From positions 1 through 60,409 of IMG/VR virus record IMGVR_UViG_3300025543_005566: a DNA stretch of 60,409 bases. One strand, given 5' to 3'. Below, piece by piece: positions 3,688-56,946 of the stretch (its first letter is position 1; every line of letters starts with the position of its first letter). The notes below the pieces were generated by a model. That model was not told the DNA's origin, did no database searches, and saw only the letters and a program-made list of their open reading frames with translations. The stretch comes from a virus. Both the position numbers and the translations under genes were made by a program.

Positions 3688-4439
3688 TAATAATCTGCTT
3701 TCCGTACAACGAAATAAGTAGTATTTGTGTTTTCATCTTCTGATGTGAAAATTAAACGAAGTAATCCATCATCCGCAAAACTTAATTTACATTCATCAGA
3801 ATTTTTATTAGCACTAAATATTTCCCTTAACATTTCACTGTTAAATGGAATTTTATTATCTTCTCGAGTACCCTCAATAAAGTTAGCATTAACATGAAAT
3901 TCTACTTTATTAGAAAATTCCATACGTTCACCAAATGTAAACTTTAAAATAGGAGTATCGATTGTATCCCTAGTAGCACTTAATGTAACAATTTCATTCC
4001 CTTGAATTGAAGCGGCTGCTCGTACAAACGTAGTGAAGTCATCATTTTCAAGTGTTGTTTCTACTTTCCATTCGATATTTTCATCTACCTCACCTACTTT
4101 ATGTATCATAAGAGGATCAGCTAATGAGTAATTGATAGAAGCTTTAGCGTCTTGAATAGTAAGTTTAGTTAATACTTTATTTGTTTTAGAAGCATCAAGC
4201 ATTAAATCACCCGCTAATACATTTAGTAGTCTATTAAGTTGTGTTGTGTTAAAGATAGCCATTTCACCCTCATTAACCATAGAAAAGTCACTACATGATA
4301 GTTTACCAATCATATCCTTAGTAGGTGCCATAAAATCAATATCAAGTTTACTATCCTTGACTTTCCATTTAACAGATTCTACTTTACCCCCAAGGTAATA
4401 CTTAGAAATAATCGATTGTAATTTGTTTTTTGTTATCAT
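3687..4439 (-). CDS. DNA polymerase sliding clamp, gp45-like (250 aa)
   Basis: Ring-shaped processivity factor that tethers the polymerase to DNA. The protein shows the clamp pattern seen in T4-like cyanophages: an N-terminal helix-strand unit, EGEMAIFNTTQLNRLLNVLAGD in the middle of the first domain, a central DPLMIHKVGEVDENIEW strand region, and a C-terminal VEFHVNANFIEGTREDNKIPFNSEMLREIFSANK. T4 gp45 is 228 residues; this one is slightly longer. Its start overlaps the stop of the polymerase C-terminal gene (ATGA), so clamp and polymerase are translationally coupled. The polymerase ends in a peptide (INKFFQFQ) of the type that docks in such clamps. The sequence is diverged, but context makes the call firm. 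Confidence 0.85.
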   Translation of the reverse strand: MITKNKLQSIISKYYLGGKVESVKWKVKDSKLDIDFMAPTKDMIGKLSCSDFSMVNEGEMAIFNTTQLNRLLNVLAGDLMLDASKTNKVLTKLTIQDAKASINYSLADPLMIHKVGEVDENIEWKVETTLENDDFTTFVRAAASIQGNEIVTLSATRDTIDTPILKFTFGERMEFSNKVEFHVNANFIEGTREDNKIPFNSEMLREIFSANKNSDECKLSFADDGLLRLIFTSEDENTNTTYFVVRKADY

Positions 4440-5368
4440 TGGAATTGGAAGAATTTATTAATGTTAGGGTTTAAGCTAAGAGTCCAACCTAGATCGGTGT
4501 AAAAATTTTCTAGTTTAGATTGAAGAATTGTTTCGAATGATTTTTTTCTATCAGCATAATCATTTAAGAATTTACGCATTCTATCAGGAACATCAAATGA
4601 TAGGAAACCAATTGCTTCAATTTTATAGGGATTGTCAATTAAATAAATCCATTTAATCTTATCACCTTGAACTATAGTACTATGTTGTTTATCTAGTTGC
4701 CAAAAGTGAAGTAAGTCATTATATCTAACTGCTGCTTTTACTCCTACAGGAGCTCCTTTTGCTATTTCAGTTAATACTTCACCTGCTCTTGGTTTTCGAG
4801 TTACATATTCATTTAAAGTTTTTACTGATGTGGGGTTGCCTAAAAGGGCAATATCTGTACTGTTAGATAAAATTGTAGTTCTAAAATCTAAAATTAGCTT
4901 ATCAATATGTTTCTGCTCTGCGCCCTTTAGAATTTGTTGGAGAATATCATTAAAAAACTTCCCAAAAATAGGGGGGAAATTTGCTTTTTTAAATTCAAGT
5001 CCTTTAATATCAAGTGATTCCTTAGCAATACCCTCCTGTTTTGTAATCCATTGGGCGTATCTTCTAGTAGCTCTAAAATAGGCAGAACGAATAACGGCTT
5101 CAGTTTTCATTTCAAGCCTGTGTTCTGTAACATTAAAACAATCTCGAGCTAGTCTATCATAGTCATTTGTAATAATATCTTGATATTTAAGGGCAATTTC
5201 TTCTAGTAGATCATCCTTCTCTATATCACCCATTTCTTCGAAATTAGGGTACAAATGTTTAAGTAGGGGTTCAGCATTAAAGTAATTAGAATCTGTGTCT
5301 ACATAAGCACAAAAGTTGTAATCGCCTTCATCACAAATCCACCAAGGTGTTTCTTCTAAATGTTTCAT
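4436..5368 (-). CDS. Family-B DNA polymerase, C-terminal fragment (motif C and thumb), gp43B
   Basis: This 310-residue gene carries the part of the replicative polymerase missing from the gene at 6305-8008. Polymerase motif C, YVDTDSNYF, with two catalytic Asp residues (24 and 26), lies right at the N-terminus; the rest corresponds to palm end and thumb. The last residues, NPNINKFFQFQ, resemble the C-terminal clamp-binding peptide of RB69/T4 gp43. Active enzyme should need both polypeptides to assemble, because motifs A and B sit on the other subunit. It begins in a TAATG overlap with the 88-residue gene and ends in an ATGA overlap with the clamp gene. Similar two-gene polymerases are known in some Aeromonas T4-like phages. 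Confidence 0.92.
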   Translation of the reverse strand: MKHLEETPWWICDEGDYNFCAYVDTDSNYFNAEPLLKHLYPNFEEMGDIEKDDLLEEIALKYQDIITNDYDRLARDCFNVTEHRLEMKTEAVIRSAYFRATRRYAQWITKQEGIAKESLDIKGLEFKKANFPPIFGKFFNDILQQILKGAEQKHIDKLILDFRTTILSNSTDIALLGNPTSVKTLNEYVTRKPRAGEVLTEIAKGAPVGVKAAVRYNDLLHFWQLDKQHSTIVQGDKIKWIYLIDNPYKIEAIGFLSFDVPDRMRKFLNDYADRKKSFETILQSKLENFYTDLGWTLSLNPNINKFFQFQ

Positions 5369-5634
5369 TAAAACCTAGCTTCGGGATCAACTTGTTGAAT
5401 TCCTCCATCTTTAAGACCTCTAGAAGTTAAAATAGGTTCTGTAATAACAATTTTGAATTTGTTATTATCTATTTTAACAGTACCTCCTTGTTTAAGCATT
5501 TTTTTAAAGAATAGGATCTGCTTATCACTCCAAAGAACACTCATATCTATAATTTCTTGTTTAGAAATAGGTTCTCCATTCCAAGTAATTTTTACGTTAT
5601 TCCTTATTGATTGGGGTTTTAATACTTCGCTCAT
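5368..5634 (-). CDS. Hypothetical protein, 88 aa, between the two polymerase genes
   Basis: Unrecognised small protein containing WNGEPISKQEIIDMSVLW and a DKQILFFKKMLKQGGTVKID segment. No membrane helix. It overlaps the homing-endonuclease stop (ATGA) and shares a base with the start of the polymerase C-terminal gene, so it may simply provide coupled translation into that gene or may stabilise the split enzyme. It could have travelled with the endonuclease, or be an older operon member displaced by the insertion. No family assignment. Confidence 0.6.
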   Translation of the reverse strand: MSEVLKPQSIRNNVKITWNGEPISKQEIIDMSVLWSDKQILFFKKMLKQGGTVKIDNNKFKIVITEPILTSRGLKDGGIQQVDPEARF

Positions 5635-6275
5635 AATGTTTTATATTTAAATTTATAGCCGTTTGTTTGCCCGAATATCCCCCTACATACTTTAGATATA
5701 GTGCTGGGATTTGAGTTGGTAGCTTCAGCGGCAAGGTTAATACTAGCATATTCACCAATATACGTCCCATCTTTTGTATAGCAAAGCACAGCTTTTCTGT
5801 TTTTATCTTTAGGAATACCTTTATGGGATTCACTTACTTTTTTACCAAATCCCTCGGGTTTAGGAACTCCTAATCTTACTTCCCTCATCATATCCCCAAA
5901 TCCTTCAGGTTTAGGTTTACCTTTCAAAGCCATTTGAATTCGTTTTTTATAGGTTGGAGGTTGGGGTGTACCTTTTCTACTCCAAGTTTTACGTTTTTGT
6001 TTAAAAACATCATTAGATTCTTTAGTTCTAGTATTTTGTGCCGGCCCTCCTCCACCTTTATTTTTATTTTCTAATATATATCCTTGCTGGGTAATTTTAT
6101 TAATCCAATATTGTTCTATTTCTTTTTTCTTATCATTGGTAGTTTCAGCTAATACTTCCATTTTAATATTAGTACCAAAGTTATATTTATGTAAGTTAAA
6201 ACGTTGTTTTGGATTTTTAGAATAGCCTATATAAAAAGGTTTACCTGCTCTTAATAATTGGTATATTGTTATCAT
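5631..6275 (-). CDS. GIY-YIG homing endonuclease inserted in the split polymerase locus
   Basis: Mobile DNA endonuclease. The N-terminal nuclease domain starts TIYQLLRAGKPFYIGYS (the GIY...YIG core is TIY...FYIG), has the conserved downstream Glu-containing helix (KKEIEQYW), and ends at NKNKGGGG. It is followed by repeated NUMOD3-like DNA-binding modules (GKPKPEGFG, GVPKPEGFG) and a C-terminal NUMOD1-like module (VLCYTKDGTYIGEYASINLAAEATN). I start at MITIYQ, because the motif AATATGTATAACT lies 2 bases before it. A start 11 codons upstream, overlapping the polymerase stop as ATGA, is also possible. Its position between polymerase halves marks it as the likely cause of the split. Confidence 0.88.
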   Translation of the reverse strand: MITIYQLLRAGKPFYIGYSKNPKQRFNLHKYNFGTNIKMEVLAETTNDKKKEIEQYWINKITQQGYILENKNKGGGGPAQNTRTKESNDVFKQKRKTWSRKGTPQPPTYKKRIQMALKGKPKPEGFGDMMREVRLGVPKPEGFGKKVSESHKGIPKDKNRKAVLCYTKDGTYIGEYASINLAAEATNSNPSTISKVCRGIFGQTNGYKFKYKTL

Positions 6276-6277
6276 AG

Positions 6278-6288
6278 TTATACATATT
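6278..6288 (-). promoter_or_regulatory. Phage promoter motif before the endonuclease gene
   Basis: Coding strand AATATGTATAACT directly before the ATG. It differs from the virion-gene motif AATATTTATAAC by one base. It would let the mobile gene be transcribed independently of the polymerase operon. Confidence 0.45.
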
Positions 6289-6304
6289 ACATGAGCAGGG
6301 CAAA

Positions 6305-8008
6305 TCATAGATTTTCTAAAAAATCTTTTGTAGCTTCAGGGCTCTTAACTAAACTGTTCATATGGCGATTAGCACATAGGGCACTCTCACAGATAATTCG
6401 TTGTCCACTTAAAGTGATAGCTTCAGATAGGATTACATTACCATATCTAAATGAACCCAAAGCGGTAGCACCATAAAGTGAATTAAGCAAAATTTTCATA
6501 GTATGTTGACGTTGGTGCCAAAATACCCCTTTTTCCTTATCACCTGATTGGTATGCTTTTTTCATATAACCTTTATATTTCACTCGTTCATCGAACCATT
6601 TATCAAGAATAGTAGCTAGTACAGAACGTTTATCAGTACGGAAGATAACACCATTTGCTGATATAGCAAAGTTATTGTCTTCGATAAGTTTTATAAGTTT
6701 ATTTACCTTAATATAAGTTTGTTTTCTATCAGGATTTTCAATTAAAAGTTCTTCGTCTGCATCTCTAGTTTTTAAATCATTTAATCCTAAACGATTATTC
6801 CTATCATCAGCATCTACGATACGAGCCATAAGTGTTTCTTTACCTATGTTAAGGGACATAATAATAGAAGGATATAGTGAAGTTAAATCCTCATCAAACA
6901 TATACTTGTAAAGTCCTGCTTTGGGACAAAATAAATATCCCCCAGCATATCCCTTTTTAAAAATAGGATTTCTATCTCTAGAAGGAGGAACAATATTTTG
7001 TCCTAATAAATAAGCTGAAATGGCTCCATCTTGGGTTTTGGTGTTAGCATAAACTTCTCCATAGTTATGTTTACCTTTATGAGATAGGTTTTTTACTAAA
7101 GCTATATATTCAAACTTTTCATCTAACTCCTTAAGTATTTCTACATCTCGGAAGTTATATTTAATAAATTTCTGGATGTCGTCTTCAAATAATCTGTCTA
7201 GATTACCTTCATATTCGATTTTACCTAAACCCACATACTTTTCCCCAATAGCATCTAAACGCATTGATGGTTCATCTCTAAAACTAAACTTTTTATGTAG
7301 TTTCATATAGTCTAGGGATTCAACTCCAGCAATATTAAGCCACCCATTGCGGTTCCATTGGCTTTCGTCTTTTACTACACCTATAGGAGACAAAGCATTA
7401 GCAAAATCTTCTCCTAATACATTACAAATCCTGTAGTATAAGTAGGGAATATCGAAATAATCACTATTCCATCCTACAAGGATATCAGGTTGAATTTCAC
7501 TAAATTTTTCAATAAATGTAGCTAATAATTCTTCTTCAGTAGCTACAGGAATAATTTCCTTATGTCCCTTAGTATGGTTAATTTGTCCTTTTTTATCTAA
7601 AATAAGAATAACCCATTCATCAGGTGTTTTATCATACCAAGCAATTGAAGTTACAGGTTTTGGAGCTGATTGGATATATTCCTCAGTAAGGGCTCCCCCC
7701 ATTTCAATCTCAATATCAAAAAATACCTCTCTGTGTCCCTTAGACACACTATCATCAGTTCCATATTTTTCAATAAGGAATTTTTGATAAGCGGGCATAT
7801 CATGAAAGTGGAGACGTGGGTTATCTTTATCCCAGTTGTAGGTTTTCTTTAACCATTCACCCTTTAGTCCCTGGTATTCTGCTTCACGTTCAGAACATTC
7901 TATGTAAGCAGGAACTCGGTAAGGTTCTACTGAATATCCTTCTTCGGTCCATAAGTGCATTTTATACTGGTTTTTACCAGCATATTCAGCATGACATTTA
8001 GTAAACAT
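6305..8008 (-). CDS. Family-B DNA polymerase, N-terminal fragment (exonuclease, motifs A and B), gp43A
   Basis: The 567-residue first half of the replicative polymerase. The 3'-5' proofreading domain is complete: Exo I VFFDIEIE (Asp98, Glu100), Exo II GWNSDYFD (181-186) and Exo III YNFRD (284-288). Polymerase motif A is DEDLTSLYPSII (Asp374) and motif B is KILLNSLYGATALGSFRYGN (505-524). The gene stops about 40 residues after motif B, before motif C, which is encoded in a separate gene about 0.9 kb downstream. An intact T4-type polymerase has about 900 residues; the two pieces total 877. Its stop overlaps a possible ATG of the endonuclease gene (ATGA). All visible catalytic residues are intact, so I infer a functional split enzyme and not a pseudogene. 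Confidence 0.95.
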   Translation of the reverse strand: MFTKCHAEYAGKNQYKMHLWTEEGYSVEPYRVPAYIECSEREAEYQGLKGEWLKKTYNWDKDNPRLHFHDMPAYQKFLIEKYGTDDSVSKGHREVFFDIEIEMGGALTEEYIQSAPKPVTSIAWYDKTPDEWVILILDKKGQINHTKGHKEIIPVATEEELLATFIEKFSEIQPDILVGWNSDYFDIPYLYYRICNVLGEDFANALSPIGVVKDESQWNRNGWLNIAGVESLDYMKLHKKFSFRDEPSMRLDAIGEKYVGLGKIEYEGNLDRLFEDDIQKFIKYNFRDVEILKELDEKFEYIALVKNLSHKGKHNYGEVYANTKTQDGAISAYLLGQNIVPPSRDRNPIFKKGYAGGYLFCPKAGLYKYMFDEDLTSLYPSIIMSLNIGKETLMARIVDADDRNNRLGLNDLKTRDADEELLIENPDRKQTYIKVNKLIKLIEDNNFAISANGVIFRTDKRSVLATILDKWFDERVKYKGYMKKAYQSGDKEKGVFWHQRQHTMKILLNSLYGATALGSFRYGNVILSEAITLSGQRIICESALCANRHMNSLVKSPEATKDFLENL

Positions 8009-10675: not shown

Positions 10676-11371
10676 TTAAATGTTATGTCCTCCGTTATTA
10701 ATTTTTAAACTGTCAAAAAACTCTTTACGAGCTAGGTTATTATTTTCTCTAAACACACCTGATGCTTTAGTAGTAATCATTGCTGCTCCTTGATGTTTAA
10801 CACCACGGCATGAAACACAGTTGTGAGTCCCTACAATAGTAACAATAACACCTTTATTACCTTCAGTAATTTTATCTACAGCATTGTGGATAGCAGATGT
10901 TAGTTGTTCTTGAATTGCTCCTCTACGACCAAATAATTCTACAATTCGGTTTAGTTTAGATAATCCAATTACCTGACCATCATCCCCGGCAATATAACCA
11001 ATATGAACTACACCCCCAATTGTTTGGTGGTGATGAGAACACATAGATGTAAGTGGGATATTCCTTTCAATAATAATACCATCATAACCATCACTTGGAA
11101 ATGAAGTAATAGGAGACATTGCTGTATAACGTCCTGCCCATAGATCATTTACATATGCCTTGGCTACACGACGGGGTGTTTCCATTGAATTAGGATCGTT
11201 TCTCCAATCACATTTTAAAGCATCTAGGAATTTACCATATGCCTTTTCGGCTTCCATTATCATTTTTTCTTTTTGCTTGTCTGAAAAGGGGAAGCCTTCA
11301 GCAACGCCATTAGCAAATCCTACTTGTACCACTTCTAATTCTTCGTGGATTTTACGTCGTTTATTCTCCAT
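10676..11371 (-). CDS. folE: GTP cyclohydrolase I (231 aa)
   Basis: Converts GTP to 7,8-dihydroneopterin triphosphate, the first step toward pterins and 7-deazaguanines. Zinc ligands are visible in SMCSHHHQ (Cys111, His114) and GTHNCVSCRGVKHQGA (Cys185). Other family blocks: ETPRRVAKAYVNDLWAG, IGYIAGDDGQVIGLSKLNRIVELFGRR, and QEQLTSAIHNAV. Length is normal. It starts directly after the stop of the phosphoribosyltransferase gene (TAA ATG). Since QueD, QueE, QueC and a DpdA-like transglycosylase are encoded 7-10 kb upstream on the same strand, its likely purpose is to feed preQ0 synthesis for DNA modification and not folate. Confidence 0.95.
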   Translation of the reverse strand: MENKRRKIHEELEVVQVGFANGVAEGFPFSDKQKEKMIMEAEKAYGKFLDALKCDWRNDPNSMETPRRVAKAYVNDLWAGRYTAMSPITSFPSDGYDGIIIERNIPLTSMCSHHHQTIGGVVHIGYIAGDDGQVIGLSKLNRIVELFGRRGAIQEQLTSAIHNAVDKITEGNKGVIVTIVGTHNCVSCRGVKHQGAAMITTKASGVFRENNNLARKEFFDSLKINNGGHNI

Positions 11372-11884
11372 TTATACTGTGTATATTGTACTTAAATTTC
11401 TATTGTGTCCATGTTCATCATCCATACCATATCCAATATACCAAGGGTCAAATACAGAATCAGTTTCTTGCTTCAAGATATGAAGTACTTTATCAAAGTC
11501 CAAGCTTTCTTTATAAATTGCTGCGACAGGGGTAATTGATCTTGGTTCTTTTACTTGGAGAAATTTAGAAACAGCTTTCATAGTATTACCTGAATCTAAA
11601 ATATCGTCTACAAGATAGACGTGTTTATTTTTAATTTTAGTTTCTAAGTCTTTAGTAACTACTAAATCACCTTGTTTTTTTCCATAGTATGATTTACAAC
11701 GGATAAAATCAATTTCAATAGGTACGTTGATTTGTTTTACTAAATCGCTAAAGAACATGAATCCACCATTTAAGATGCAAACTAATACTATAGGTGTAGA
11801 ATCATCTCGATGTTCATCGTTGATTTTTTTAGCTAGAATTTTAATTTGAATATCTAGCTCTTTTTCACTTATTGCTTTTTCCAT
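11372..11884 (-). CDS. Hypoxanthine(-guanine) phosphoribosyltransferase (170 aa)
   Basis: Purine salvage enzyme that joins a purine base to PRPP. The PRPP-binding loop is VYLVDDILDSGNTMKAV. Other family features are the CILNGGFMFFSDLV loop, SYYGKKQGD in the flexible lid region, and VFDPWYIGYGMDD near the C-terminus (base-binding Asp/Trp region). Length is typical. It is the first gene of an operon with folE and the MazG-like gene and has a host-type promoter ending only 4 bases before its ATG. By making IMP/GMP it could raise the GTP supply for FolE next door; that link is inferred from adjacency. Confidence 0.92.
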   Translation of the reverse strand: MEKAISEKELDIQIKILAKKINDEHRDDSTPIVLVCILNGGFMFFSDLVKQINVPIEIDFIRCKSYYGKKQGDLVVTKDLETKIKNKHVYLVDDILDSGNTMKAVSKFLQVKEPRSITPVAAIYKESLDFDKVLHILKQETDSVFDPWYIGYGMDDEHGHNRNLSTIYTV

Positions 11885-11888
11885 AATG

Positions 11889-11920
11889 TAAATATAAAAA
11901 AATTAGAGGGCTGCTCCCAA
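11889..11920 (-). promoter_or_regulatory. Host-type promoter overlapping a terminator, before the phosphoribosyltransferase
   Basis: Coding strand TTGG, 20 bases, TATATTTA, then CATT and ATG. The -33 has one mismatch to TTTG. The short gap to the ATG predicts a leaderless or nearly leaderless mRNA. The -33 element and spacer lie inside the terminator hairpin of the receptor gene upstream. Confidence 0.6.
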
Positions 11921-11936
11921 TTAAGGGAACAGCCTT
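11893..11936 (-). terminator. Rho-independent terminator after the TonB-receptor gene
   Basis: Coding strand GGCTGTTCCC, 6-base loop TTAATT, GGGAGCAGCC (nine of ten pairs), then TCTAATTTTTTT. It closes the receptor transcription unit. Confidence 0.85.
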
Positions 11937-11959: not shown

Positions 11960-14503
11960 TTAGAAATTAAGTTTTAAACTAGCATTAAATGTACGACCCC
12001 ATCCTGGGAATCCGTCTCTTAAGCCTGTTCCATCACTGTTATTACGGCCTTCAGCCCAATAGAAAGTATCAAGAACATTATAACACTGAACTTGTGCGTA
12101 TGAGTCTAAGCCTAATACTTTAAATTTAGCACCTACTCTTAAGTCGAGTAATCCATAAGCATCCATTTCATAAGGTTGGATTTTATCTTCAACAGTTTCA
12201 TTACTTGTTGGGTCATAGTTAGCATACAATTTATCATTGTAAACAAACTGACCACCAAAGTCAAATGTTCTGTTAATTTGGTATCGAGCTTTAAATCCTA
12301 ATTGTGTTTGAGGTGCGTTACCCACATACAAACCATCTGTAAATACCTGCACAGTATCAATTGATTGATCAATGTCAGATTGTAATGTAGCAAATACATC
12401 ACCTTCCCATTTCCAATCGCCTAATGACACTATACCACCCAAATCTAACTTATCAGTGGGTTTTGTATTAAATTCAACTTCAATACCTTTATGTAAAGCA
12501 CCCTGACCATTAATCAAAGCACGTGTAGTACCACCGTCAGCGGTAGGGATACGGCCTGAAAGTAATGTTTTGTCTTTCCATTGAGTGTAATAAGCATTTA
12601 CTTTAGTAGATACTTTTCTACCACTATAACCATAACCACCTTCGAATGCAAGAGCTTTCTCATTTACTACGTTATCAGAAATAACATTTTGGTAGTTTTG
12701 GAATAAAAATCCAAAGAATGGAGCACGTGAGTAGAAACCTGTATTAAAAAATACATTGTTTTTCTCATTGATGTTATAGTTAGCACCTGCTTTAACATTG
12801 TATCCTAAAATAGCAACGGTTTCAGATGTTTGGTCTGCTTCGTCAGCATAATTATATCTATCAATACGAGTATTCCAAGTATTAGAAACACTACCTGCAA
12901 GGAACGCACTTAAGTTATCCTTAGAATATTCGGCTTGACCGAATACTCCTGTATATCCTACTTTACCATCGTTGTCATAAGCAATTCTGTTAGCAAAGTC
13001 TGAACGTCCCGCCCAAAGTGAAGTTGAATTTTCATCAATTCCAATTTGTTGGTTACGTCCTGCTACTCCATCAACTGCATATTTGTACTCTTCAAACCAG
13101 TAATCACCACCCATTAAGTCTCTAACTTCACGGAAGTGTTCACCTTTATATTTACGTCCATCAATACCAAATGTAAAATCTAAGTTTTCATTAGGTTGAT
13201 GTCTTACAGTAGATAGTACACCTACCCAGTTATGGTTATTAACTGAGTTTCTGAGGATTGTATATGATCCTACAGTTGAGGTATCATTAGCTGCTGCAGC
13301 AGCATCCCAATCAATTTGACCATTTTCATCAGTTGGAGCATATTCTCCTAAAGGACCACTACCTCCACCTTTACCTACAGAAACGTAAGCTGAGGTTGCT
13401 ACTTGGGTTTTCTCATTAACATCCCAATAATGGTTTAAAGCAAATTGTGGTTTATGATAATAGTTATTACGCTGATTAAGCATCTCACCATTATAATATC
13501 CCCAGTCTTTGTTGTATGTGCTACCATATTCTTCTACTTCTCCAGGAGTTAACATTCGATCACGTTGCCCGTGTTCTTGAGGTGCTCCAATAGCAGTAAA
13601 AGTAAGCATATGATCTTCATTTAAATCCTTAGCATATGAAAGGAAGTATGAATTGGCTCTTACATAAGTACCATCTACATACCCATCACCATTAGTGTTA
13701 GAAACAACAGCAGTAACTGCTGCTCCGTCTTTCATTTTACCTGTTGAATAAGATAAGGTATTTTTTAATTGTCCGTAGCTAGAATATTGTGACTGGAAAC
13801 TTCCGCCTTTCTGAGCATCAGTTGTTTTAGTAACAATGTTCATAGTACCTCCAATAGAGTTAATAGCAAGTTTAGAAGCACCTAGACCTCTTTGAACTTG
13901 TACTTGTGAAACAGCATCGCCCAAACCATTCCAGTTAGACCAATATACCCAACCTGATTCCATATCGTTAACAGGGATACCGTTAATCAATACTGCAATG
14001 TTGCGTTGGTCAAATCCTCGAATGTTAATACGAGCATCACCTACTCCACCACCTTGTTTAGTAGCGTAAACGCCAGGGGTGACTTTTAATAATTCTGGAA
14101 ATTCCTGTGTACCAATGTATTCGGCAACTTCTGTTGCACTAATAGTTGATACCGCAACAGGAGTTTTCCTATCTACAGCAACGTTAGCAATAACAGATAC
14201 TTCTTCTAAACCTAAAGCAGTAGAGACAAGAGCAATTACGCCCATATCTGCAGCAGCTGGTAAGGTTAAGGATTCGTATCCTATAAAACTAACCACCAAG
14301 TTTCCACTTGGTGTATTGGATAATTCAAAGGTTCCATCAAGGTTAGTTGAGGTTCCTCTAGAATTACCTTCTAAATAAATACTTGCTCCTACAAGTTCAT
14401 TGCCTGTAGAAGCGTCTGTTACTTTACCTGTAATTTGGGCAAAGGATAGCGAGGACATTGTACACAATACCGTCACTAATACAAATTTTAACATTTGTTT
14501 CAT
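11960..14503 (-). CDS. TonB-dependent outer-membrane receptor (847 aa), phage-encoded
   Basis: Full-length outer-membrane receptor of Bacteroidota type. A signal peptide (MKQMLKFVLVTVLCTMSSLSFA) precedes a carboxypeptidase-regulatory-like domain (ITGKVTDASTGNELVGASIY...GTFELSN). Next come a TonB-box-like EEVSVIA near residue 100, a plug domain (TPGVYATKQGGGVGDARINI, LINGIPVNDMESGWVYWSNW, GASKLAINSIGGTMNIVT) and a large beta-barrel ending in WGRTFNASLKLNF with the terminal Phe expected for barrel assembly. It normally imports siderophores, vitamins or oligomers using TonB energy. The gene is intact and bracketed by terminators, i.e. a self-contained 'moron'. A whole receptor of this class in a phage is very unusual; substrate unknown. 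Confidence 0.95.
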   Translation of the reverse strand: MKQMLKFVLVTVLCTMSSLSFAQITGKVTDASTGNELVGASIYLEGNSRGTSTNLDGTFELSNTPSGNLVVSFIGYESLTLPAAADMGVIALVSTALGLEEVSVIANVAVDRKTPVAVSTISATEVAEYIGTQEFPELLKVTPGVYATKQGGGVGDARINIRGFDQRNIAVLINGIPVNDMESGWVYWSNWNGLGDAVSQVQVQRGLGASKLAINSIGGTMNIVTKTTDAQKGGSFQSQYSSYGQLKNTLSYSTGKMKDGAAVTAVVSNTNGDGYVDGTYVRANSYFLSYAKDLNEDHMLTFTAIGAPQEHGQRDRMLTPGEVEEYGSTYNKDWGYYNGEMLNQRNNYYHKPQFALNHYWDVNEKTQVATSAYVSVGKGGGSGPLGEYAPTDENGQIDWDAAAAANDTSTVGSYTILRNSVNNHNWVGVLSTVRHQPNENLDFTFGIDGRKYKGEHFREVRDLMGGDYWFEEYKYAVDGVAGRNQQIGIDENSTSLWAGRSDFANRIAYDNDGKVGYTGVFGQAEYSKDNLSAFLAGSVSNTWNTRIDRYNYADEADQTSETVAILGYNVKAGANYNINEKNNVFFNTGFYSRAPFFGFLFQNYQNVISDNVVNEKALAFEGGYGYSGRKVSTKVNAYYTQWKDKTLLSGRIPTADGGTTRALINGQGALHKGIEVEFNTKPTDKLDLGGIVSLGDWKWEGDVFATLQSDIDQSIDTVQVFTDGLYVGNAPQTQLGFKARYQINRTFDFGGQFVYNDKLYANYDPTSNETVEDKIQPYEMDAYGLLDLRVGAKFKVLGLDSYAQVQCYNVLDTFYWAEGRNNSDGTGLRDGFPGWGRTFNASLKLNF

Positions 14504-14544
14504 TGTTTAAAAAAATTTAAGGGGTTTGGTTAATATATAGAGAA

Positions 14545-14565
14545 GGGGAGACTTTTTGTCTCCCC
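14545..14565 (-). terminator. Rho-independent terminator between the DUF5675 gene and the receptor gene
   Basis: Perfect hairpin GGGGAGAC, loop AAAAA, GTCTCCCC, followed by TTCTCTATATATT (a weak U-rich tail). It lies right after the stop of the 164-residue gene and insulates the receptor gene from read-through. Confidence 0.75.
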
Positions 14566-14576
14566 TGTTATATTCT

Positions 14577-15071
14577 TTAATCTACCGAGTCGTAATCGGT
14601 GTACGTAATACTGACAATCCCATTATTACTTAATACTTCGGCAATAGGGGGATAGATTCTTTTATAATTATTTGTTGAAGAACCAATAAATCCGTCTTTT
14701 GTAATTTGGTTATTGTTTTGGGTGTCTCCTACTAATAAACATCCTGATGTATTTTCATCAGTGTTCCCAATATGGATAAGAATATATTCAAATCCAGGAA
14801 CGTCTCTTACCCAGAGCATTCCTTTGTTAAAATCAGAACCAAACCTTTCAGTATAGTCTTGATAAAATCCTCCCTCAGTACGAAGTGTAACATTGTATGT
14901 TCCAGCTGGTACTCGGGTTTCTGACATTACTTTTTCCTTTCTATACTCATCTTCAAGAGTATAAGATAGGAATTTACGTTGTCCATTTGTTATATCAAAC
15001 AACAATCCATTTGTTGAGTCGGCTTCACTTGAAAACCTTAAAACTTCTAACTGCATACTGGGTCTATTCAT
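14577..15071 (-). CDS. DUF5675-family protein (164 aa)
   Basis: Recognised by the family pattern: a strand region ending in the conserved LSYTLEDEYR, then ETRVPAGTYNVTLR, a VPGFEYILIHIGNTDENTSGCLLVG core with conserved His, Asn and Cys, and a C-terminal strand. DUF5675 proteins are common in phages of Bacteroidota and other hosts and often sit near lysis genes; the fold resembles L,D-transpeptidase-like catalytic domains, so a cell-wall role is possible but unproven. It overlaps the ThyX stop by 8 bases, so it is translated from the thyX mRNA, and is followed directly by a terminator. Confidence 0.82.
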   Translation of the reverse strand: MNRPSMQLEVLRFSSEADSTNGLLFDITNGQRKFLSYTLEDEYRKEKVMSETRVPAGTYNVTLRTEGGFYQDYTERFGSDFNKGMLWVRDVPGFEYILIHIGNTDENTSGCLLVGDTQNNNQITKDGFIGSSTNNYKRIYPPIAEVLSNNGIVSITYTDYDSVD

Positions 15072-15705
15072 ATCCTAATGCTTTTGAGATGACTGGAAAT
15101 TCTTGGATAAATATATGCTTTATCTCTTTTGCAACAAGTTGAATTTCCTTTTGAGCATGTCCATCATCTCTTAGTTCAAGAAAGTGAATCCAAGAACGAA
15201 TACTTCCTGTCATATGGATTTTGGTAGTAGTAGCTAATGGGAGAACCATACGAGCTTGTTCTCGAGCTACACCCGCCTCTAAAAGATCATTATAAAGTTT
15301 ATGACATCTTTCAAAGTGTATTTCAATATTCTTGTTTGCAAATACTCCATTTGGGAGAAGAGGATTAATTACTTCTGTTGAACTTTGTCTATTGTCTTCA
15401 CACTGTTCCCGTAATTCAATGGGTTCGAAGATATCCCCCAAACGATTAACATCTTGATATCGTTGACTAAATTCTTGGAAAGCGAAAGAACGGTGTCTGA
15501 TGAGTTGGATACCGATTGCTTTGGAAGTTTCAATTTCGAAGGTCGCATGCCCATGCTCCAACGGGCTCCAGTGTTTGTGTTGTACCAAGTAGCGAAGAAG
15601 GCCTTCCGGTTTATCTTTCTTATTCTTACGTGAACTAGATACACGTGCCACCTCAACAATGTGGTCTTCAGCATTTGGTGTAACATTTAATAAGGTAACT
15701 TTCAT
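15064..15705 (-). CDS. thyX: Flavin-dependent thymidylate synthase ThyX (213 aa)
   Basis: Makes dTMP from dUMP using FAD and methylene-tetrahydrofolate. The signature is at residues 70-83, RHRSFAFQEFSQRY, a variant of RHRxxSxNExSxRY with Phe, Ala and Gln replacing some common residues. Other family features are PLEHGHATFEIETSKAIGIQ upstream and the C-terminal MTGSIRSWIHFLELRDDGHAQKEIQ with conserved Arg and His. Length matches the family. It supplies dTTP precursors alongside the phage ribonucleotide reductase. It has its own host-type promoter, with DUF5675 co-transcribed downstream. Confidence 0.95.
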   Translation of the reverse strand: MKVTLLNVTPNAEDHIVEVARVSSSRKNKKDKPEGLLRYLVQHKHWSPLEHGHATFEIETSKAIGIQLIRHRSFAFQEFSQRYQDVNRLGDIFEPIELREQCEDNRQSSTEVINPLLPNGVFANKNIEIHFERCHKLYNDLLEAGVAREQARMVLPLATTTKIHMTGSIRSWIHFLELRDDGHAQKEIQLVAKEIKHIFIQEFPVISKALGYE

Positions 15706-15758: not shown

Positions 15759-17255
15759 TTATCTAAAAATTGTTATATATCCTGAAGTTTGGAATGTATG
15801 GGAAGGGTTGTATCCTTTACCTTTAACGGTATAAACGTAAATTCCATCAGCTACATAATGACTTCCATTAGAATTAGAACCCTCCCAGACTTCCCCTATA
15901 ATATTAGATTCCCAAACTAGTCTCCCCCATCTATCAAAAATTAAAACTTGAAATTCAATCCAACATTCAGAATCTGTTACTATAGACCAACCATCATTTA
16001 ACCCATCATTATTAGGGGTAAACACATTAGGTGCAAAATATAAACCATCACAAGAATCATAAACGCAACTGCCATCTTCTAGGGTTGCTGAGGGGTTATA
16101 ATTAATAGCTTGAAGATCTGTACATCCTGCTAAGTAAATAACACACGAACCATCGTCCACAGTAGCGAGTGGGTTATAATTTGAGGCAATTGGATTAGTA
16201 CACCCAAATATAGTAAATTCACAAGAACCGTCATCAATATTGGCGAACGGGTTATAATTGATCGCACTATTGTCAGTGCAACCCAGCACATCATAAAGGC
16301 AACTTTCATCATCGATATTAGCTTCGGGGTTATAATTGTTAGCATCAACATCAGTACAACCATAAATATCAGGGCATAAGTTAATTAGTTCTATTACTTG
16401 ATGGGGTAATACATCATTTATATTTTGACCCGTATTATTTAAGTTATAAAGGGTTAAGGTAAGTTCACAATAATCCCCATTATTAATCTCTTCTAAAAGG
16501 GGTTCTAAAATTATACTTAAAATACCATTGCTTAAGTCTAATATAATAGGATTATCAGATTCATAAATTTGTTGCCCTCCTATATTAACGTTTATATTTC
16601 CTACATCTGTAGCAAAAGTTAAGGTAAACCCAAAAACATAGGGGTTATCATAAGGGTATTGGTTATACCAAGCGGAATTTATTATATTAGGACAGTAGGT
16701 TGAATGTGGGATTATAGTTAATTCTTCGGTTTCTAAATTAAAATCTATTAATTCTATTTCACAAACATCATTACAAAAATTATCTCCGTCTGGGTTGTCA
16801 CATCCATCACTTAAAACTTCAGTCCAAAGTGTACCATCCTCATTAAAAATCCATTGATAACAATCCGTGCTATAGATAGGTACTAAGGCAAGTTTAAAGG
16901 ATATATACTCACTCCCAGTCCACCCTGCGTAAGGTGTCCAATTCCCCGGAACATTTTCAGGTAGAGGAATATCAAATACTGGGGTTGATATAAATCTACT
17001 TTGTCCTGGGAGGATAGGTATAGGATTTAAATTAAAGTCCCATATAGGACCTGATATGAATCCTGATAGAGCCCAATCCATGTATAAGGGTCCCCCAGAA
17101 TATGGAATTATATCATCATTTTGAATTTCAAATGCAAAGGAAATACCAGGGTTATGATCAATTACTTGGATTGATCCGGGAGTTATGTATACATCACATT
17201 GCCCCCATCCAGTATAGCTAGTTACTAATAATAGTAGTAATAAGAGTTTTTTCAT
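15759..17255 (-). CDS. Secreted protein with type IX secretion sorting domain and four Cys-rich repeats (498 aa)
   Basis: An exported protein in a phage genome. A signal peptide (MKKLLLLLLLVTSYTGWGQ) leads to about 280 residues of beta-rich sequence without clear family. Four tandem repeats of the form GCTDxxAxNYNPxAxxDDGSC then occupy residues 299-400. The C-terminal 95 residues (FAPNVFTPNNDGLNDGW, FQVLIFDRWGRLVWES, GIYVYTVKGKG) form a CHU_C/type-B sorting domain that directs substrates to the Bacteroidota type IX system and the cell surface. The gene follows a terminator and a possible promoter, as for an accessory 'moron'. It could change the infected cell's surface, block superinfection, or be a captured host adhesin. 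Confidence 0.9.
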   Translation of the reverse strand: MKKLLLLLLLVTSYTGWGQCDVYITPGSIQVIDHNPGISFAFEIQNDDIIPYSGGPLYMDWALSGFISGPIWDFNLNPIPILPGQSRFISTPVFDIPLPENVPGNWTPYAGWTGSEYISFKLALVPIYSTDCYQWIFNEDGTLWTEVLSDGCDNPDGDNFCNDVCEIELIDFNLETEELTIIPHSTYCPNIINSAWYNQYPYDNPYVFGFTLTFATDVGNINVNIGGQQIYESDNPIILDLSNGILSIILEPLLEEINNGDYCELTLTLYNLNNTGQNINDVLPHQVIELINLCPDIYGCTDVDANNYNPEANIDDESCLYDVLGCTDNSAINYNPFANIDDGSCEFTIFGCTNPIASNYNPLATVDDGSCVIYLAGCTDLQAINYNPSATLEDGSCVYDSCDGLYFAPNVFTPNNDGLNDGWSIVTDSECWIEFQVLIFDRWGRLVWESNIIGEVWEGSNSNGSHYVADGIYVYTVKGKGYNPSHTFQTSGYITIFR

Positions 17256-18009: not shown

Positions 18010-18786
18010 CTAAACCATGCGCTTTTGATCGTATGCAATTATATGATCTCTCCCCGTCATGTTATAACCATGTTCAGCACATAGTTCAAATACAAGAGGA
18101 TACATTTTAATAAGCTGTTCCCTTGTATCGCCTCCGGGCATTACAAATGTTTTATCTTTTGGGATATTCATTTTAACTCTAAATGATTCAATCTCAGCTA
18201 GGCCTTCATCAGTACCATCCCAAACAGGTTTGTAGTGATAGTCATCGTGGTACTCTAGTGTTTTTTCAATCGCATCATAATTAAGTCTAAACTTTTCATG
18301 CTGTGCGACAAACCTTTCATCCACCACTTTACCCCCTGGTGTAGTAGTACCAACAACAGGGCGGGAATTAGAAAACTTAGGACTAAGAGATATGAGACCA
18401 ATTGGATAATCGGTTGTAACAAAATGCGATCCCTCAGTTTCGATTGTGATAAGTATTCCTCGTTCATTTGCAAAATGTGTTAATTCATTTACCAATGCAG
18501 CGTGCATTGTTGGTGAGCCTCCAGTTAACATCATCTCTTTAACATGAGGGTTCTCATCATAAATATTGATTATGTCATTGAAGGTGAATGTTCCTTTTTC
18601 GGGGTGGATTGACGTGTAGAATGAGTCACACCACCCTCCTTCACCAAACCAACATCGGTGGGTGCATCCTGTGGTACGGACTGCAATAGTAGGACGTCCA
18701 AAACGACTACCCTCTGATTGGACACATCTGTATACTTCTACAATTGGAAGTACTTTATTATAATCTTCTATTCTTTTATTTGGCAT
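18010..18786 (-). CDS. queE: 7-carboxy-7-deazaguanine synthase QueE, radical SAM (258 aa)
   Basis: Radical SAM enzyme converting 6-carboxy-tetrahydropterin to 7-carboxy-7-deazaguanine. QueE features include VYRCVQSEGSRFGRPTIAVRTTGC at the N-terminus, MLTGGSPTMH (the GGE-type SAM motif, here GGS), and the ETEGSHF substrate strand. The cluster motif is CTHRCWFGEGGWC, i.e. CX3CX7C, expanded from the usual CX3CX2C, like the spacing variants known in QueE subfamilies. It overlaps queD by one base and is the last gene of the DpdA-QueC-QueD-QueE operon. Function is supported by the complete pathway next to it. Confidence is high for the family, slightly lower for activity given the unusual motif. 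Confidence 0.92.
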   Translation of the reverse strand: MPNKRIEDYNKVLPIVEVYRCVQSEGSRFGRPTIAVRTTGCTHRCWFGEGGWCDSFYTSIHPEKGTFTFNDIINIYDENPHVKEMMLTGGSPTMHAALVNELTHFANERGILITIETEGSHFVTTDYPIGLISLSPKFSNSRPVVGTTTPGGKVVDERFVAQHEKFRLNYDAIEKTLEYHDDYHYKPVWDGTDEGLAEIESFRVKMNIPKDKTFVMPGGDTREQLIKMYPLVFELCAEHGYNMTGRDHIIAYDQKRMV

Positions 18787-19259
18787 TAGATATTGGCTTG
18801 TTCTCTAGTAAATATAGCACTATTCTTCCCATGTTCAGAAAATTCAACTTGTCTTACTTTCACTCGACCATCTGTTTCTTCTTTAACAAATTCATCAATT
18901 TTTTCAAAGACGTATTGAGCAAATTTTTCTGCTCCAGTAGCCGGAAGAACTCGCACTTGAGCTACCCCTGCTTCATCCATTCTTTTAAATGATTCTAGGA
19001 AGGGATCGTCTTCAGCTACAATAAAGGTATGGTCGAATGTGTAATCCATCCATGCTTTAGGATTCATACCATCAATTTGGGTTTTGGCACGTTTCATGCC
19101 TCCGAAATCCCAAACCCAGTTTTTTTCATCAAGTTCACCTTGGAACCAAACTTTAAAACTTACTCCATAACCATGAAGGAATCTACAGTGAGTATCATCT
19201 GCTTTCCATTGACGAAATACACAAGTAAATCCGTCGAATATTTTTGTTGATTGAAACAT
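18786..19259 (-). CDS. queD: 6-carboxy-5,6,7,8-tetrahydropterin synthase QueD (157 aa)
   Basis: PTPS-fold enzyme converting dihydroneopterin triphosphate to 6-carboxy-tetrahydropterin. The zinc/substrate block is DTHCRFLHGYGVSFKVWF, with HGY replacing the common HGH; this belongs to the subfamily with a QW-[KR]A...HC...HGY pattern (FRQWKADDTHC). Downstream are VWDFGGMKRAK, DYTFDHTFIV with the catalytic Asp-His, and the ATGAEKFAQYVFEKI helix. Start and stop overlap queC and queE by one base each, so the three are translated as a block. The product feeds QueE directly. Confidence 0.9.
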   Translation of the reverse strand: MFQSTKIFDGFTCVFRQWKADDTHCRFLHGYGVSFKVWFQGELDEKNWVWDFGGMKRAKTQIDGMNPKAWMDYTFDHTFIVAEDDPFLESFKRMDEAGVAQVRVLPATGAEKFAQYVFEKIDEFVKEETDGRVKVRQVEFSEHGKNSAIFTREQANI

Positions 19260-20056
19260 TATGCTTGGTTTAAAATTTGTTCAACATGCGTTCGTACAGT
19301 TTCCCAATTAACAACTCCTTGCTCATCTGCATAGAGTACTGGGTCGGGTCGGCCCAATTTAATAAATGCTTCAACCCTTTCGACCGAAGACGCTGATTTA
19401 TAATCACTATACCACTTGCCAGCAATATTAATGGGCTTGTAGCTAGTATTTGTATTTGCATATACTGTATCAAAGTCAAGTCCAAGTTGATTACAACATT
19501 CGACTCCATCTTTAAGTATATCAAACTTATCCCCATTAAGGTAAGGGGTAACATAGCTAATGCGCTCAGCGTCCCAATTACCCTCGGTGAAGGCCCTATA
19601 ATCAGCATCTCTGAATTCTTGTCTACAATCAGGATAGATTGCATGATCACCTGCATGAATGCCCATTGCAATATGGACTTCAGTATTTTTTTCATTTGCT
19701 TTGCTTAATGCTACTGCTTGAATAATTGATGAGAAGATTTTGTTTCGGTTAGGAACAACTGTTTCTTTCATATTTTCCTGTTGATAGTGACCCTCAGGTA
19801 CCTCATCACCACCTTCTACAAGGGCACTATTAAGCATAGGGGCTAAACCATCAAGTTTAATTACCCCATACTCTACATCATAATCATCCATAATAAGGAT
19901 GTTTACTAATGCTTGAGCTCGTTCAAGTTCTACTCTATGTTTTTGTCCGTAATCAAAGCTAAGGGCTGTAACTTCATACCCATCTGCTAGTAATCTAAGG
20001 AGGACCGTGCTTGAGTCCATACCCCCTGAGAGGCTAAGTACTGCTTGTTTTTTCAT
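19259..20056 (-). CDS. queC: 7-cyano-7-deazaguanine (preQ0) synthase QueC (265 aa)
   Basis: ATP-dependent ligase that turns 7-carboxy-7-deazaguanine into preQ0. The PP-loop ATP motif is LSLSGGMDSSTVLL, followed by ALSFDYGQKHRVELERA and the VPNRNKIFSSIIQAVAL helix (canonical VPxRN). The C-terminal zinc site expected in this family is absent: where four Cys are usual, the sequence is TSYKPINIAGKWYSDYKSAS, with no Cys at all. The rest (SVERVEAFIKLGRPDPVLY) aligns with the family ending. It is either a zinc-independent QueC subfamily or one with altered chemistry. It starts in a 4-base overlap with the DpdA-like gene. Confidence 0.9.
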   Translation of the reverse strand: MKKQAVLSLSGGMDSSTVLLRLLADGYEVTALSFDYGQKHRVELERAQALVNILIMDDYDVEYGVIKLDGLAPMLNSALVEGGDEVPEGHYQQENMKETVVPNRNKIFSSIIQAVALSKANEKNTEVHIAMGIHAGDHAIYPDCRQEFRDADYRAFTEGNWDAERISYVTPYLNGDKFDILKDGVECCNQLGLDFDTVYANTNTSYKPINIAGKWYSDYKSASSVERVEAFIKLGRPDPVLYADEQGVVNWETVRTHVEQILNQA

Positions 20057-38523: not shown

Positions 38524-41500
38524 TTACAAATCGTTAAAAATTCTAAATGTTAATGAATGCTTGTAGAATAAGCTATAATCAAGAGTATTGTATACTTTAA
38601 ATCTTAGAATGTTGTTTGTAACATCAACATCCTCTGCTTGAATGTATATTTGTTCCAAGTTTAGTCTGGATTTAGTGTATTCAGGAACTAAGTATGGGAT
38701 CGTAAGGTTTAACACTACATCATCGGTGGATGTTGTTCCTCCTATATCGGCCCCATCAATTGTGATTGCTGTAGTTGTTGAATATCCACTTCCCCCATCT
38801 GTTACTATTATTGAAGTAGCAAGTCCTGTATTTCCTATTACAACTGTGGCTTGTGCTCCTGTTCCTCCTCCTGTAATACCAACAGGACCATAGGACCCTT
38901 GGGTCTTATTTCCGGGGTCTGTGGCTACTATACTTATTAATTGGGTTTGAGCAATTTCAGTAGTTACACTTTGTGAAACGAATGTTCCATCTACTTCAGT
39001 AATAGTAAAATCATATAGATAGTTTTTACTTAAAAATGCCCAAAGGGTACCTGTAAATTTCAATGTAGCACCTGCTCTGATGAAGGGGTCAGCAACGGTT
39101 CCTGTTCCGCTATTATTTCCTTTTAATATAACCATTCCATCAAATTCAACTACATCGAATGTGCCAAAGCTAAGCCCCGTATTAAAAATATCAGTTCCTG
39201 GGTTACCCACGGATCCTGCAGGTACACTATCTAATATAGACCAATTTTCTGTGATTGATGTACCTGAAGTACCTGATGAGCCTGATGTGCCTGATGAACC
39301 ACTAGTACCTGAAGAACCTGATGTGCCTGAAGAACCAGATGTACCCGAAGCTCCCGTCATACCTGAAGAGCCTGAAGTACCTGAAGAACCTGAAGTGCCT
39401 GAGGAACCACTAATACCTGAAGTACCTGAAGAGCCTGAGGTACCTGATGAGCCACTAGTACCTGAAGAACCTGAAGTACCTGATGAACCTGATGTGCCTG
39501 AAGCACCTGTCATACCTGAGGAGCCAGAAGTGCCTGAAGAGCCTGAGGTGCCTGAGGAACCACTTGTACCTGATGAACCACTTATACCCGAAGTACCTGA
39601 TGAACCACTTGTACCCGAAGAACCATCTATACCTGAAGTGCCTGATGAACCTGAAGTACCCGATGAACCATCTATACCTGAGGTACCCGATGAACCACTT
39701 GTACCTGAAGAACCGTCTATACCTGAAGTACCTGATGAACCACTTGTGCCTGAAGAACCATCTATACCTGATGTACCTGATGAACCTGAAGTACCTGAAG
39801 AACCGTCTATACCTGAAGTACCTGATGAACCACTTGTACCTGAAGAACCGTCTATGCCTGAAGTACCTGAAGAACCTGAAGTACCCGATGAACCGTCTGT
39901 GCCTGATGAACCTGATGAACCTGAAGTACCGTCTATACCTGAAGTACCTGATGAACCACTTGTACCTGAAGAACCATCTATACCTGAAGTGCCTGAAGAA
40001 CCTGAAGTACCTGAAGAACCATCTATACCTGATGTACCTGATGAACCACTTGTACCTGAAGAACCATCTATACCTGAAGTACCTGATGAACCACTTGTAC
40101 CTGATGAACCATCTATACCTGAGGTACCTGATGAGCCACTTGTACCTGATGAACCGTCTATACCTGATGTACCTGATGAACCTGAGGTACCCGATGAACC
40201 GTCTATACCTGATGTACCTGATGAACCTGAAGTACCTGAAGAACCACTTGTTCCTGAGGTGCCGCTAGAACCTGAAGAGCCACTAGTACCCGAAGAGCCT
40301 GAAGTACCTGAGGCGCCTGTCATACCTGATGAACCGGATGTGCCTGAAGAGCCGTCTATACCTGCAATCCCTGAAGTACCCGATGAACCACTGGTGCCTG
40401 ATAAACCACTTGTTCCTGAAGAACCTGAAGTGCCTGATGAGCCTGATGTACCTGAGGAACCACTAGTACCTGAAGAACCTGAAGTACCTGAAGCCCCTGT
40501 CATACCTGAAGAACCCGAAGTACCTGAAGAGCCTGAAGAGCCTGAAGTACCTGAAGAACCTGAGGTGCCCGATGAACCATCTATACCTGAAGTACCTGAA
40601 GTGCCTGAAGAACCTGATGTACCTGAAGAACCTGATGCTCCTGGGGCTCCTGCTAGGTTTATACACCATGTATAAGAGGTAATTGAAGACCAAGACCCTG
40701 TGGAAGAAGTAACATTAATTTCAATATTTCCAGTTCCTGAGTTATAATTGTTTACGGTACCCTCAATAAAATTAGAGGAATCAATTGCTAATATTATGTT
40801 CTGCCCCGCAGTATAAGCTAATCCGGATCCTATAGCAATAGTAAGAGGGGATGAAGGAGGGTTTGAAATTGTAAGGTTATTAACACATGCAGCATAGATA
40901 TCTCCATCGGTTCCTGAAGCACCTGATGAGCCTGAGGTACCTGATGAGCCTGATGTGCCTGAAGAACCACTAGTACCTGAAGAGCCATCTATACCTGAAG
41001 TGCCTGAGGAGCCTGAGGTACCCGATGAGCCGGATGTGCCTGAAGCACCTGTCATACCTGATGAACCTGAAGTGCCTGAAGAACCTGAAGTGCCTGATGA
41101 ACCCGAAGTGCCTGAAGTGCCTGAAGTACCTGATGAACCGTCTATACCTGAAGTGCCTGAAGAACCTGAAGTACCTGAGGCACCTGTCATACCTGAAGAA
41201 CCTGAAGTGCCTGAAGTGCCCGATGTGCCAGAGGAACCCGATGTGCCTGATGAACCTGAAGTACCTGATGAACCTGAAGTACCTGAAATACCCGATGAAC
41301 CTGAGGAACCACTAGTACCTGAAGAACCACTAGTGCCTGAAGAACCTGAAGTACCCGAAGCTCCGGTCATACCTGAAGAGCCTGAGGTGCCTGATGAACC
41401 TGAAGTGCCTGAAGAACCATCAATACCTGAGGTGCCAGAAGAACCACCGGTACCTGAAGAACCTGAAGTACCTGAAGAACCACTAGTACCCGAAGAACCG

Positions 41501-56460: not shown

Positions 56461-56946
56461 TTAGAAATTCAATACACAGTAATCAGGTTGTACTGTCATT
56501 GAGATTTCAACAGCACCCTCACTATCGTAATTGTAATCACCAAATGTTGCTTCGGTAATTATAGCTCCTTTAATGATCCATTCTGAGACTACATCACCTA
56601 CAGGACCCAAGACATTTACTGTCATATCCTTTTTATAGAAATCAGAATAACCATCTCGGCCTGTTACTGATTCGTGGTGTAATCTTACCCATTCCATTAC
56701 TGATTGAGCTCCAGAAGGAGTAATTGCATCAAATAATGTCATTGATATGGTACCCCAAGTGGTTTTGCCTTTTACAAACCTTTGAACGTTAATGTGATTC
56801 AAAGGAATTGTTGCTTGGGATACTGAAACTGCTCCTAATCCTTTAATAAGGTAAGCGGGAAATCCATCTACATACAAAACAAATCTATTTTGTTGTTTTG
56901 GTTCAAACGGGGTGAAAAATATTTCGTTGGGATCTAATACTGCCAT
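56461..56946 (-). CDS. Tail tube protein gp19 (161 aa)
   Basis: Major tube subunit. Recognised by NRFVLYVDGFPAYLIKGLG, the typical ATIPLNHINVQRFVKGKTTWGTISMTL, VMEWVRLHHESVTGRDGYSD and a C-terminal strand AVEISMTVQPDYCVLNF. Length matches the T4 gp19 family (163). It is directly downstream of the sheath gene, as in T4, and has its own copy of the phage promoter motif 14 bases before the ATG plus a strong terminator behind it, fitting a very highly expressed gene. Confidence 0.95.
   Translation of the reverse strand: MAVLDPNEIFFTPFEPKQQNRFVLYVDGFPAYLIKGLGAVSVSQATIPLNHINVQRFVKGKTTWGTISMTLFDAITPSGAQSVMEWVRLHHESVTGRDGYSDFYKKDMTVNVLGPVGDVVSEWIIKGAIITEATFGDYNYDSEGAVEISMTVQPDYCVLNF

Follow-up and report, generated by a model that had tools for sequence, protein, structure and literature searches.

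A complete TonB-dependent receptor gene, recurrent in T4-like phages, and its putative role in nucleic-acid scavenging

The window, the whole 60.4-kb virus record that was analysed (G000; IMG/VR record IMGVR_UViG_3300025543_005566), was found to encode a complete TonB-dependent receptor (TBDR), which we interpret, at a probability of roughly 55%, as a working importer serving the scavenging of nucleic-acid or nucleotide compounds during infection, with a putative substrate and timing. The interpretation is based on the intact architecture and predicted TBDR fold of the protein, its recurrence in phages, purifying selection focused on the plug, and linkage to nuclease and nucleotide genes. The receptor would be exported, energised by host TonB and expressed in the infected cell, and its cargo would presumably benefit the phage. 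A sequence-only reading had offered three functions for it (nutrient or iron uptake, replacement of the host receptor and a shed decoy); uptake was the best supported of these, as uptake of nucleic-acid or nucleotide compounds rather than iron.

Results

Genomic setting and assembly

The window is probably a fragment of a phage genome and carries a contractile-tailed, T4-like gene set (sheath, tube, family-B polymerase, DnaB, RNR, FolE/QueCDE, GroEL and a collagen-like fibre). By sheath comparison, Flavobacterium phage immuto was its best cultured relative, at 55% identity. A type IX secretion protein with a CHU_C C-terminal domain, identified by a domain match, is encoded three genes upstream of the TBDR (15759-17255, minus strand) and points to a host of the Bacteroidota. 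CHU_C/T9SS type B sorting proteins, or relatives of the one in the window, were also encoded by L226, L178, L315 and L324, several of them adjoining TBDRs, and phages with such proteins appear from their gene content to use the type IX secretion of the host. No integrase was found among the subset of window genes scanned, in an incomplete genome, and the phage is putatively of lytic type.

Several other features of the window were recorded. The family-B DNA polymerase (4436-8008) is encoded by two ORFs, between which lie an 88-aa ORF and a gene for a GIY-YIG homing endonuclease (5631-6308); the same split occurs in relatives such as L097, without the endonuclease. The collagen-like tail fibre gene (38524-47874, 3116 aa) has about 45-51% GC against about 34% for the genome and contains long opposite-strand ORFs. 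GroEL is encoded at 398-2056, and its small neighbour (2017-2304) has relatives resembling GroES (e.g. L264:8590-8892). QueE, QueD and QueC (18010-20056) together with FolE (10676-11371) form a set that is widely conserved among related contigs and suggests 7-deazaguanine modification of the phage DNA.

The genes on either side of the TBDR were annotated as phage genes on the same strand, as the sequence-only reading had stated. Its further statement that the gene is flanked by terminators held downstream, where a terminator search identified an intrinsic terminator 3′ of the TBDR (11909-11934, minus strand), but not upstream, where the GC-rich hairpin in the gap between the DUF5675 gene and the TBDR (14544-14566) is terminator-like on the plus strand only and has no clean T-run on the coding strand. 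A sigma-70 promoter scan performed no better than one of shuffled sequence. A chimeric assembly at 11.9-14.5 kb, which that reading had raised as a concern together with absence from related phages, was rejected because a second contig, IMGVR_UViG_3300025570_002181 (28 kb), shows 13 mismatches to the window along a colinear 22.5-kb stretch that includes both TBDR junctions; TBDRs were also present in related phages. In codon use, the TBDR lies inside the spread shown by the other phage genes.

Architecture and predicted fold of the receptor

The TBDR ORF was located at exactly 11960-14503 on the minus strand, with an ATG start, 847 aa and no internal stops. The protein begins with a signal peptide, MKQMLKFVLVTVLCTMSSLSFAQ, read directly from the sequence (residues 1-23, 14435-14503, minus strand; n-region, hydrophobic core and SFAQ). 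This is followed by an N-terminal CarboxypepD_reg-like domain (NTD; residues 24-103, 14195-14434, minus strand), which matched Pfam CarbopepD_reg_2 at 7.6e-17. In an alignment of 135 TBDRs, the TonB-box-like stretch LEEVSVIAN (residues 99-107, 14183-14209, minus strand) lined up with the box-like stretch of bacterial relatives, ahead of the plug. The plug domain (residues 112-230, 13814-14170, minus strand; Pfam match to Plug over residues 112-220, 5.8e-15) precedes a predicted 22-strand barrel (residues 231-847, 11963-13813, minus strand) that ends in the aromatic residue Phe. With all of these parts present and the frame uninterrupted, the earlier description of a full-length, undecayed phage-encoded TBDR was borne out.

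An AlphaFold2 model of the receptor, built from phage and bacterial relatives, showed a plug inside a barrel of about 22 strands (pLDDT 84, pTM 0.80). A Foldseek search with the model returned known TBDRs as the top PDB matches, PqqU (E=5e-38) followed by Fiu, FhuA and FecA, with 13-16% identity to PqqU and the siderophore receptors; FhuA-T5 pb5 complexes were also among the PDB matches. Only one predicted viral protein matched the structure along the full length, A0A8D9FQQ5, annotated 'TonB-dependent receptor SusC' from an uncultured marine phage. PHROG 5687, an unnamed family of 760 aa, covered residues 96-847 (5.7e-15). The predicted structure and the domain matches thus confirmed that the ORF encodes a plug-in-barrel TonB-dependent receptor. 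Membership of SusC was rejected, as the protein scored 80.9 bits against the SusC/RagA model TIGR04056, under its curated cut-off of 368.25, and no SusD-type lipoprotein gene adjoins it (the neighbours are DUF5675, Thy1, PRTase and FolE). None of the NCBIfam importer models attained its cut-off with this protein.

Distribution and ancestry

A profile-guided scan of IMG/VR revealed 434 stretches encoding relatives of the TBDR, of which the best 80 were retained (79 apart from the window's own twin). At least 32 of these 79 best loci carried window-like polymerase, helicase, RNR, FolE, Thy1 or queuosine genes within about 10 kb, so the earlier view that such receptors are 'rarely, if ever, encoded by lytic-type phages' was too strong. 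Such receptors recur among T4-like phages whose hosts are of the Bacteroidota type; within the window's own phage group they are a minority trait (1/34 contigs of 40 kb or more).

In a phylogenetic tree, 65 phage TBDRs formed a radiation nested among bacterial orthologues, the closest of which was 70% identical to the TBDR of L226. The window TBDR fell elsewhere, in a small group whose other members were phage contigs L249-L251 and a single bacterial genome. A first tree had suggested a phage-only clade, which was dropped once more bacteria had been sampled and their orthologues fell both next to it and within it. The tree topology clearly indicates a bacterial origin of the gene family, and closer donors may exist, since the bacterial sample comprised 395 genomes of one phylum. 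Two gut 'phage' records, H1 and H2 (37% identity), were set aside as unverified scaffolds without annotation.

A variable slot between thy1 and folE

The TBDR occupies a slot bordered on the left by the gene for thymidylate synthase Thy1 (15064-15705, minus strand) and, in the closest relatives, by the DUF5675 gene (14577-15071, minus strand; Pfam), in place of which L097 has a peptidase M15 gene. Directly 3′ of the TBDR lies an HGPRT-like purine-salvage gene (11372-11884, minus strand), which matched Pribosyltran (3e-23) and TIGR01203 (7e-36, below the curated cut-off), and the right border is folE, encoding GTP cyclohydrolase I (10676-11371, minus strand). Polymerase and FolE searches yielded 158 further loci. 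Among relatives whose flanking genes are 77-97% identical, the slot had four kinds of content: a TBDR of the window type; a different TBDR only about 43% identical to it (L226, L097 and L106); a 148-160-aa protein with a signal peptide, eight predicted strands and a terminal Phe (L171, L103 and L104); and neither the TBDR types nor the small protein (L095, L107 and L191). The HGPRT-like gene remains where the TBDR is absent. On the downstream side of an abrupt break at 11926, within the TBDR terminator, L171, which has no TBDR, matches the window at 99% identity.

The two TBDR types of the slot did not form one clade, and a single origin was rejected (lnL difference 396, p-AU 0.008). The TBDRs of L097 and L226 are 92.5% identical, yet their thy1 and folE genes differ by about 17-22%, and the receptor therefore appears to move between phage lineages. 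Small signal-peptide proteins with eight predicted strands and a terminal Phe were found at L171:3395-3841, L103:6165-6647 and L240:1586-2011, those of L171 and L103 lying in the TBDR slot. The small slot protein matched no Pfam family and its best Foldseek match had E=4.5e-3, which is suggestive of an outer-membrane barrel and falls short of proof.

Linkage to nuclease and nucleotide genes

An S1/P1 nuclease gene was located just 3′ of the TBDR and on the same strand in 12 phage loci, the distance being about 280-410 nt at 11 of these; the 232 related phage loci that lack a TBDR contained no such gene. These controls came mostly from the window's own phage group, and the bearing loci, not being phylogenetically independent, represent roughly six to seven groups. 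Examples are L264:12993-13781, L288:6625-7440 and L301:11336-12109, with nine more loci. The nuclease gene matched PF02265 in each of three copies tested, and ten aligned full-length phage copies retained the motifs WGKxGHR, ADEM, WHYVN, YLVHxVGDxHQPxH and NLHxLWD. At several loci an 81-aa predicted membrane protein is encoded between the TBDR and the S1/P1 gene.

Nucleotide genes also adjoin phage TBDRs: an IMPDH/GMP-reductase (GMPR) gene is directly upstream at 17 loci, APT and nucleoside phosphorylase genes are beside the TBDR at three, nrdA is within about 550 nt at five, and the HGPRT-like gene is downstream in the window and three relatives. An endonuclease-NS-like gene lies upstream at two loci; as a specific partner, the non-specific endonuclease was dropped because it was present in 19 control loci too. 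Nucleotide or nuclease genes were near the TBDR in 34/80 loci against 22/80 for a random 2.7-kb box placed in the same short loci, a modest excess that leaves direct S1/P1 and IMPDH adjacency as the strong part of the linkage. T4-like phages carry many nucleotide genes anyway, which counts against a reading from linkage. No nuclease gene was found beside the window's own TBDR, whose salvage-type neighbours are the HGPRT-like and Thy1 genes only; its proposed substrate is therefore carried over from its relatives.

Among bacterial relatives of the window type, endonuclease I (G110 and G114), an S1/P1 nuclease (G161), two T9SS-secreted PLD-type nucleases (G001) and a polyphosphate kinase (G048) were found to adjoin the TBDR. 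A nucleotide pyrophosphatase adjoins it in four of the eight closest bacterial relatives of the other phage type. By tblastn, at least one gene of these kinds was present in 11/26 bacterial neighbourhoods of relatives against 1/20 for control TBDRs, a comparison that is biased and illustrative only, since the nuclease queries came from those same neighbourhoods.

Selection and expression timing

Purifying selection acts strongly on phage TBDRs, and most of all on the plug. In pairs of phage TBDRs, omega was 0.05-0.07 for the plug, the lowest of all regions, 0.13-0.16 for the box region, about 0.16-0.22 for the barrel and about 0.35 for the NTD, the highest of the four. The rise from plug through box to barrel is as expected if TonB-dependent transport is kept. 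The predicted extracellular loops of phage TBDRs had an omega of 0.16 against 0.18 for strands, whereas in bacterial relatives the loops (0.41) exceeded the strands (0.32); by this comparison, which takes loops from predicted topology and covers substitutions with indels unscored, no diversification of the exposed surface was detected in phage TBDR loops. Predicted periplasmic turns were the exception (omega 0.49, 42 residues). The NTD showed mosaic exchange, as between L262 and L267, in which the NTDs are 72% identical and plug and barrel 97-99%, perhaps matching differing host TonB proteins. Taken together, this pattern is easier to reconcile with TonB-driven transport having been retained than with a decoy or a surface shaped by an arms race.

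The motif ATATTTAT was found upstream of 76/77 tail-tube, 41/76 sheath and 7/7 CHU_C genes, and from this distribution it is a candidate late promoter of the window's phage group. In the window it precedes the genes at 56461, 53199, 58725, 37341, 17335 and 15759, and GTATATTTAC takes its place upstream of those at 30014 (ssb), 21553 and 2304. It was found upstream of 0/65 phage TBDRs and 2/65 bacterial TBDRs. The lack of this late-promoter-like motif at all 65 phage genes argues that the TBDR is not a late gene and is expressed before the late phase.

Discussion

We propose that the phage inserts a TonB-dependent importer in the outer membrane of its host during infection, where the TonB-ExbBD system of the host would power it. 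The cargo would most likely be breakdown products of extracellular nucleic acids (oligonucleotides, nucleotides, nucleosides or bases), whose phosphorus may be part of their value, and secreted nucleases and phosphatases of the host or the phage would process these compounds. Phage HGPRT-like, IMPDH/GMPR, APT, RNR and Thy1 enzymes could then convert the imports to dNTPs for phage DNA. The broader proposal is tentative and falls somewhat short of even odds: that Bacteroidota phages repeatedly carry an outer-membrane scavenging module, consisting of an importer and sometimes their own secreted S1/P1 nuclease, which feeds purine-salvage and dNTP genes and makes infected cells importers of extracellular DNA products.

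The main rival, which we consider unlikely at about one chance in five, is that a phage outer-membrane protein displaces, masks or downregulates a host receptor used by the phage itself or its competitors; the porin of the lambdoid phage PA-2 would be a comparable case. TBDRs are common phage receptors, as the FhuA-T5 pb5 complexes among the structural matches illustrate, and receptor replacement keeps some plausibility because the slot that alternates two unrelated TBDR types also holds another membrane-type protein, the small eight-strand protein of L171, L103 and L104. However, the barrel nature of that protein is weakly supported (Foldseek E=4.5e-3), direct pairing with nucleases and purine-salvage genes would be unexpected, and constraint is greatest in the plug and not at the surface, with phage loops at 0.16 against strands at 0.18 where bacterial relatives have loops above strands. 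The general receptor role of TBDRs is also all that favours a decoy on shed membrane vesicles or debris that absorbs rival phages or colicin-like toxins, a very improbable reading: a decoy has no need of a conserved plug and TonB box, and constraint there, together with undiversified surface loops and the absent late-promoter-like motif, speaks against it.

Import of some other nutrient (phosphate esters generally, a metal complex, a vitamin or a glycan) is slightly less probable than superinfection control. Siderophore, B12, PQQ and glycan importers all have this fold, the closest structures (PqqU and siderophore receptors) share only 13-16% identity, a polyphosphate kinase lies beside one bacterial relative, and the receptor of Mar_Mega_1 was interpreted as serving carbohydrate uptake (PMC9723777). 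Against this, no importer model of NCBIfam reached its cut-off, the window gene has no adjoining SusD partner, and the nuclease and nucleotide-salvage linkage points elsewhere. It is just as improbable as a decoy that the gene is a functionless passenger acquired from a host by transduction, or an assembly chimera. The family is clearly bacterial in origin and the TBDR is missing from most relatives in the window's phage group, but two colinear contigs with 13 mismatches cross the junctions, codon use is phage-typical and purifying selection in phages has been long-term.

Phage TBDRs have been noted before, and PHROG 5687 holds unnamed relatives. The megaphages Mar_Mega_1 and LR745206 encode a TBDR/SusC, for which a short passage proposes raised carbohydrate uptake (Michniewski et al. 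2021, PMC9723777), and a hot-spring study of 2018 briefly mentions TBDR genes in reconstructed phage genomes (PMC6302217). In the open papers searched, no characterised phage TBDR beyond PMC9723777 was found, PMC6302217 being a passing mention, and there was no report of a TBDR family in T4-like phages, an exchangeable slot, the selection pattern or the S1/P1 pairing. The Mar_Mega_1/LR745206 receptor is, like that of the window, phage-encoded, of TBDR length and from a marine phage; unlike it, it belongs to a giant phage rather than a T4-like one, has 13% identity to the window TBDR, and was called SusC and read as a carbohydrate receptor without linkage or selection analysis. A0A8D9FQQ5, being annotated as a marine-phage SusC, is probably this receptor. 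PHROG 5687 spans residues 96-847 of the window TBDR with a modest score and no named function. TBDRs of Bacteroidota that adjoin genes for secreted nucleases or for nucleotide pyrophosphatases (G110, G114, G161, G001, G379, G293, G257 and G234) have the same architecture and lie in bacterial genomes, with about 35-48% identity to the window TBDR and 63-70% for those closest to the other phage type.

Cyanophages carry auxiliary uptake genes such as pstS, for phosphate binding. Like pstS, the window TBDR is carried by a phage and would increase the nutrient intake of infected cells, although pstS concerns a periplasmic/inner-membrane step and the TBDR an energy-coupled outer-membrane step. The lambdoid phage PA-2 carries the porin Lc/NmpC, and lambda carries Lom. 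These are likewise phage-encoded outer-membrane proteins; unlike the window TBDR, they belong to temperate phages, are expressed in lysogens and are TonB-independent.

Auxiliary genes of phages are usually viewed as acting inside the cell. If the proposal is true, a selected and recurrent importer paired with a nuclease would shift phage metabolic control to the cell surface, and infected cells would become competitors for the DNA and phosphorus dissolved in seawater. The TBDR offers a direct test between two ideas on phage-borne surface proteins, that of feeding the infection and that of shutting out rivals.
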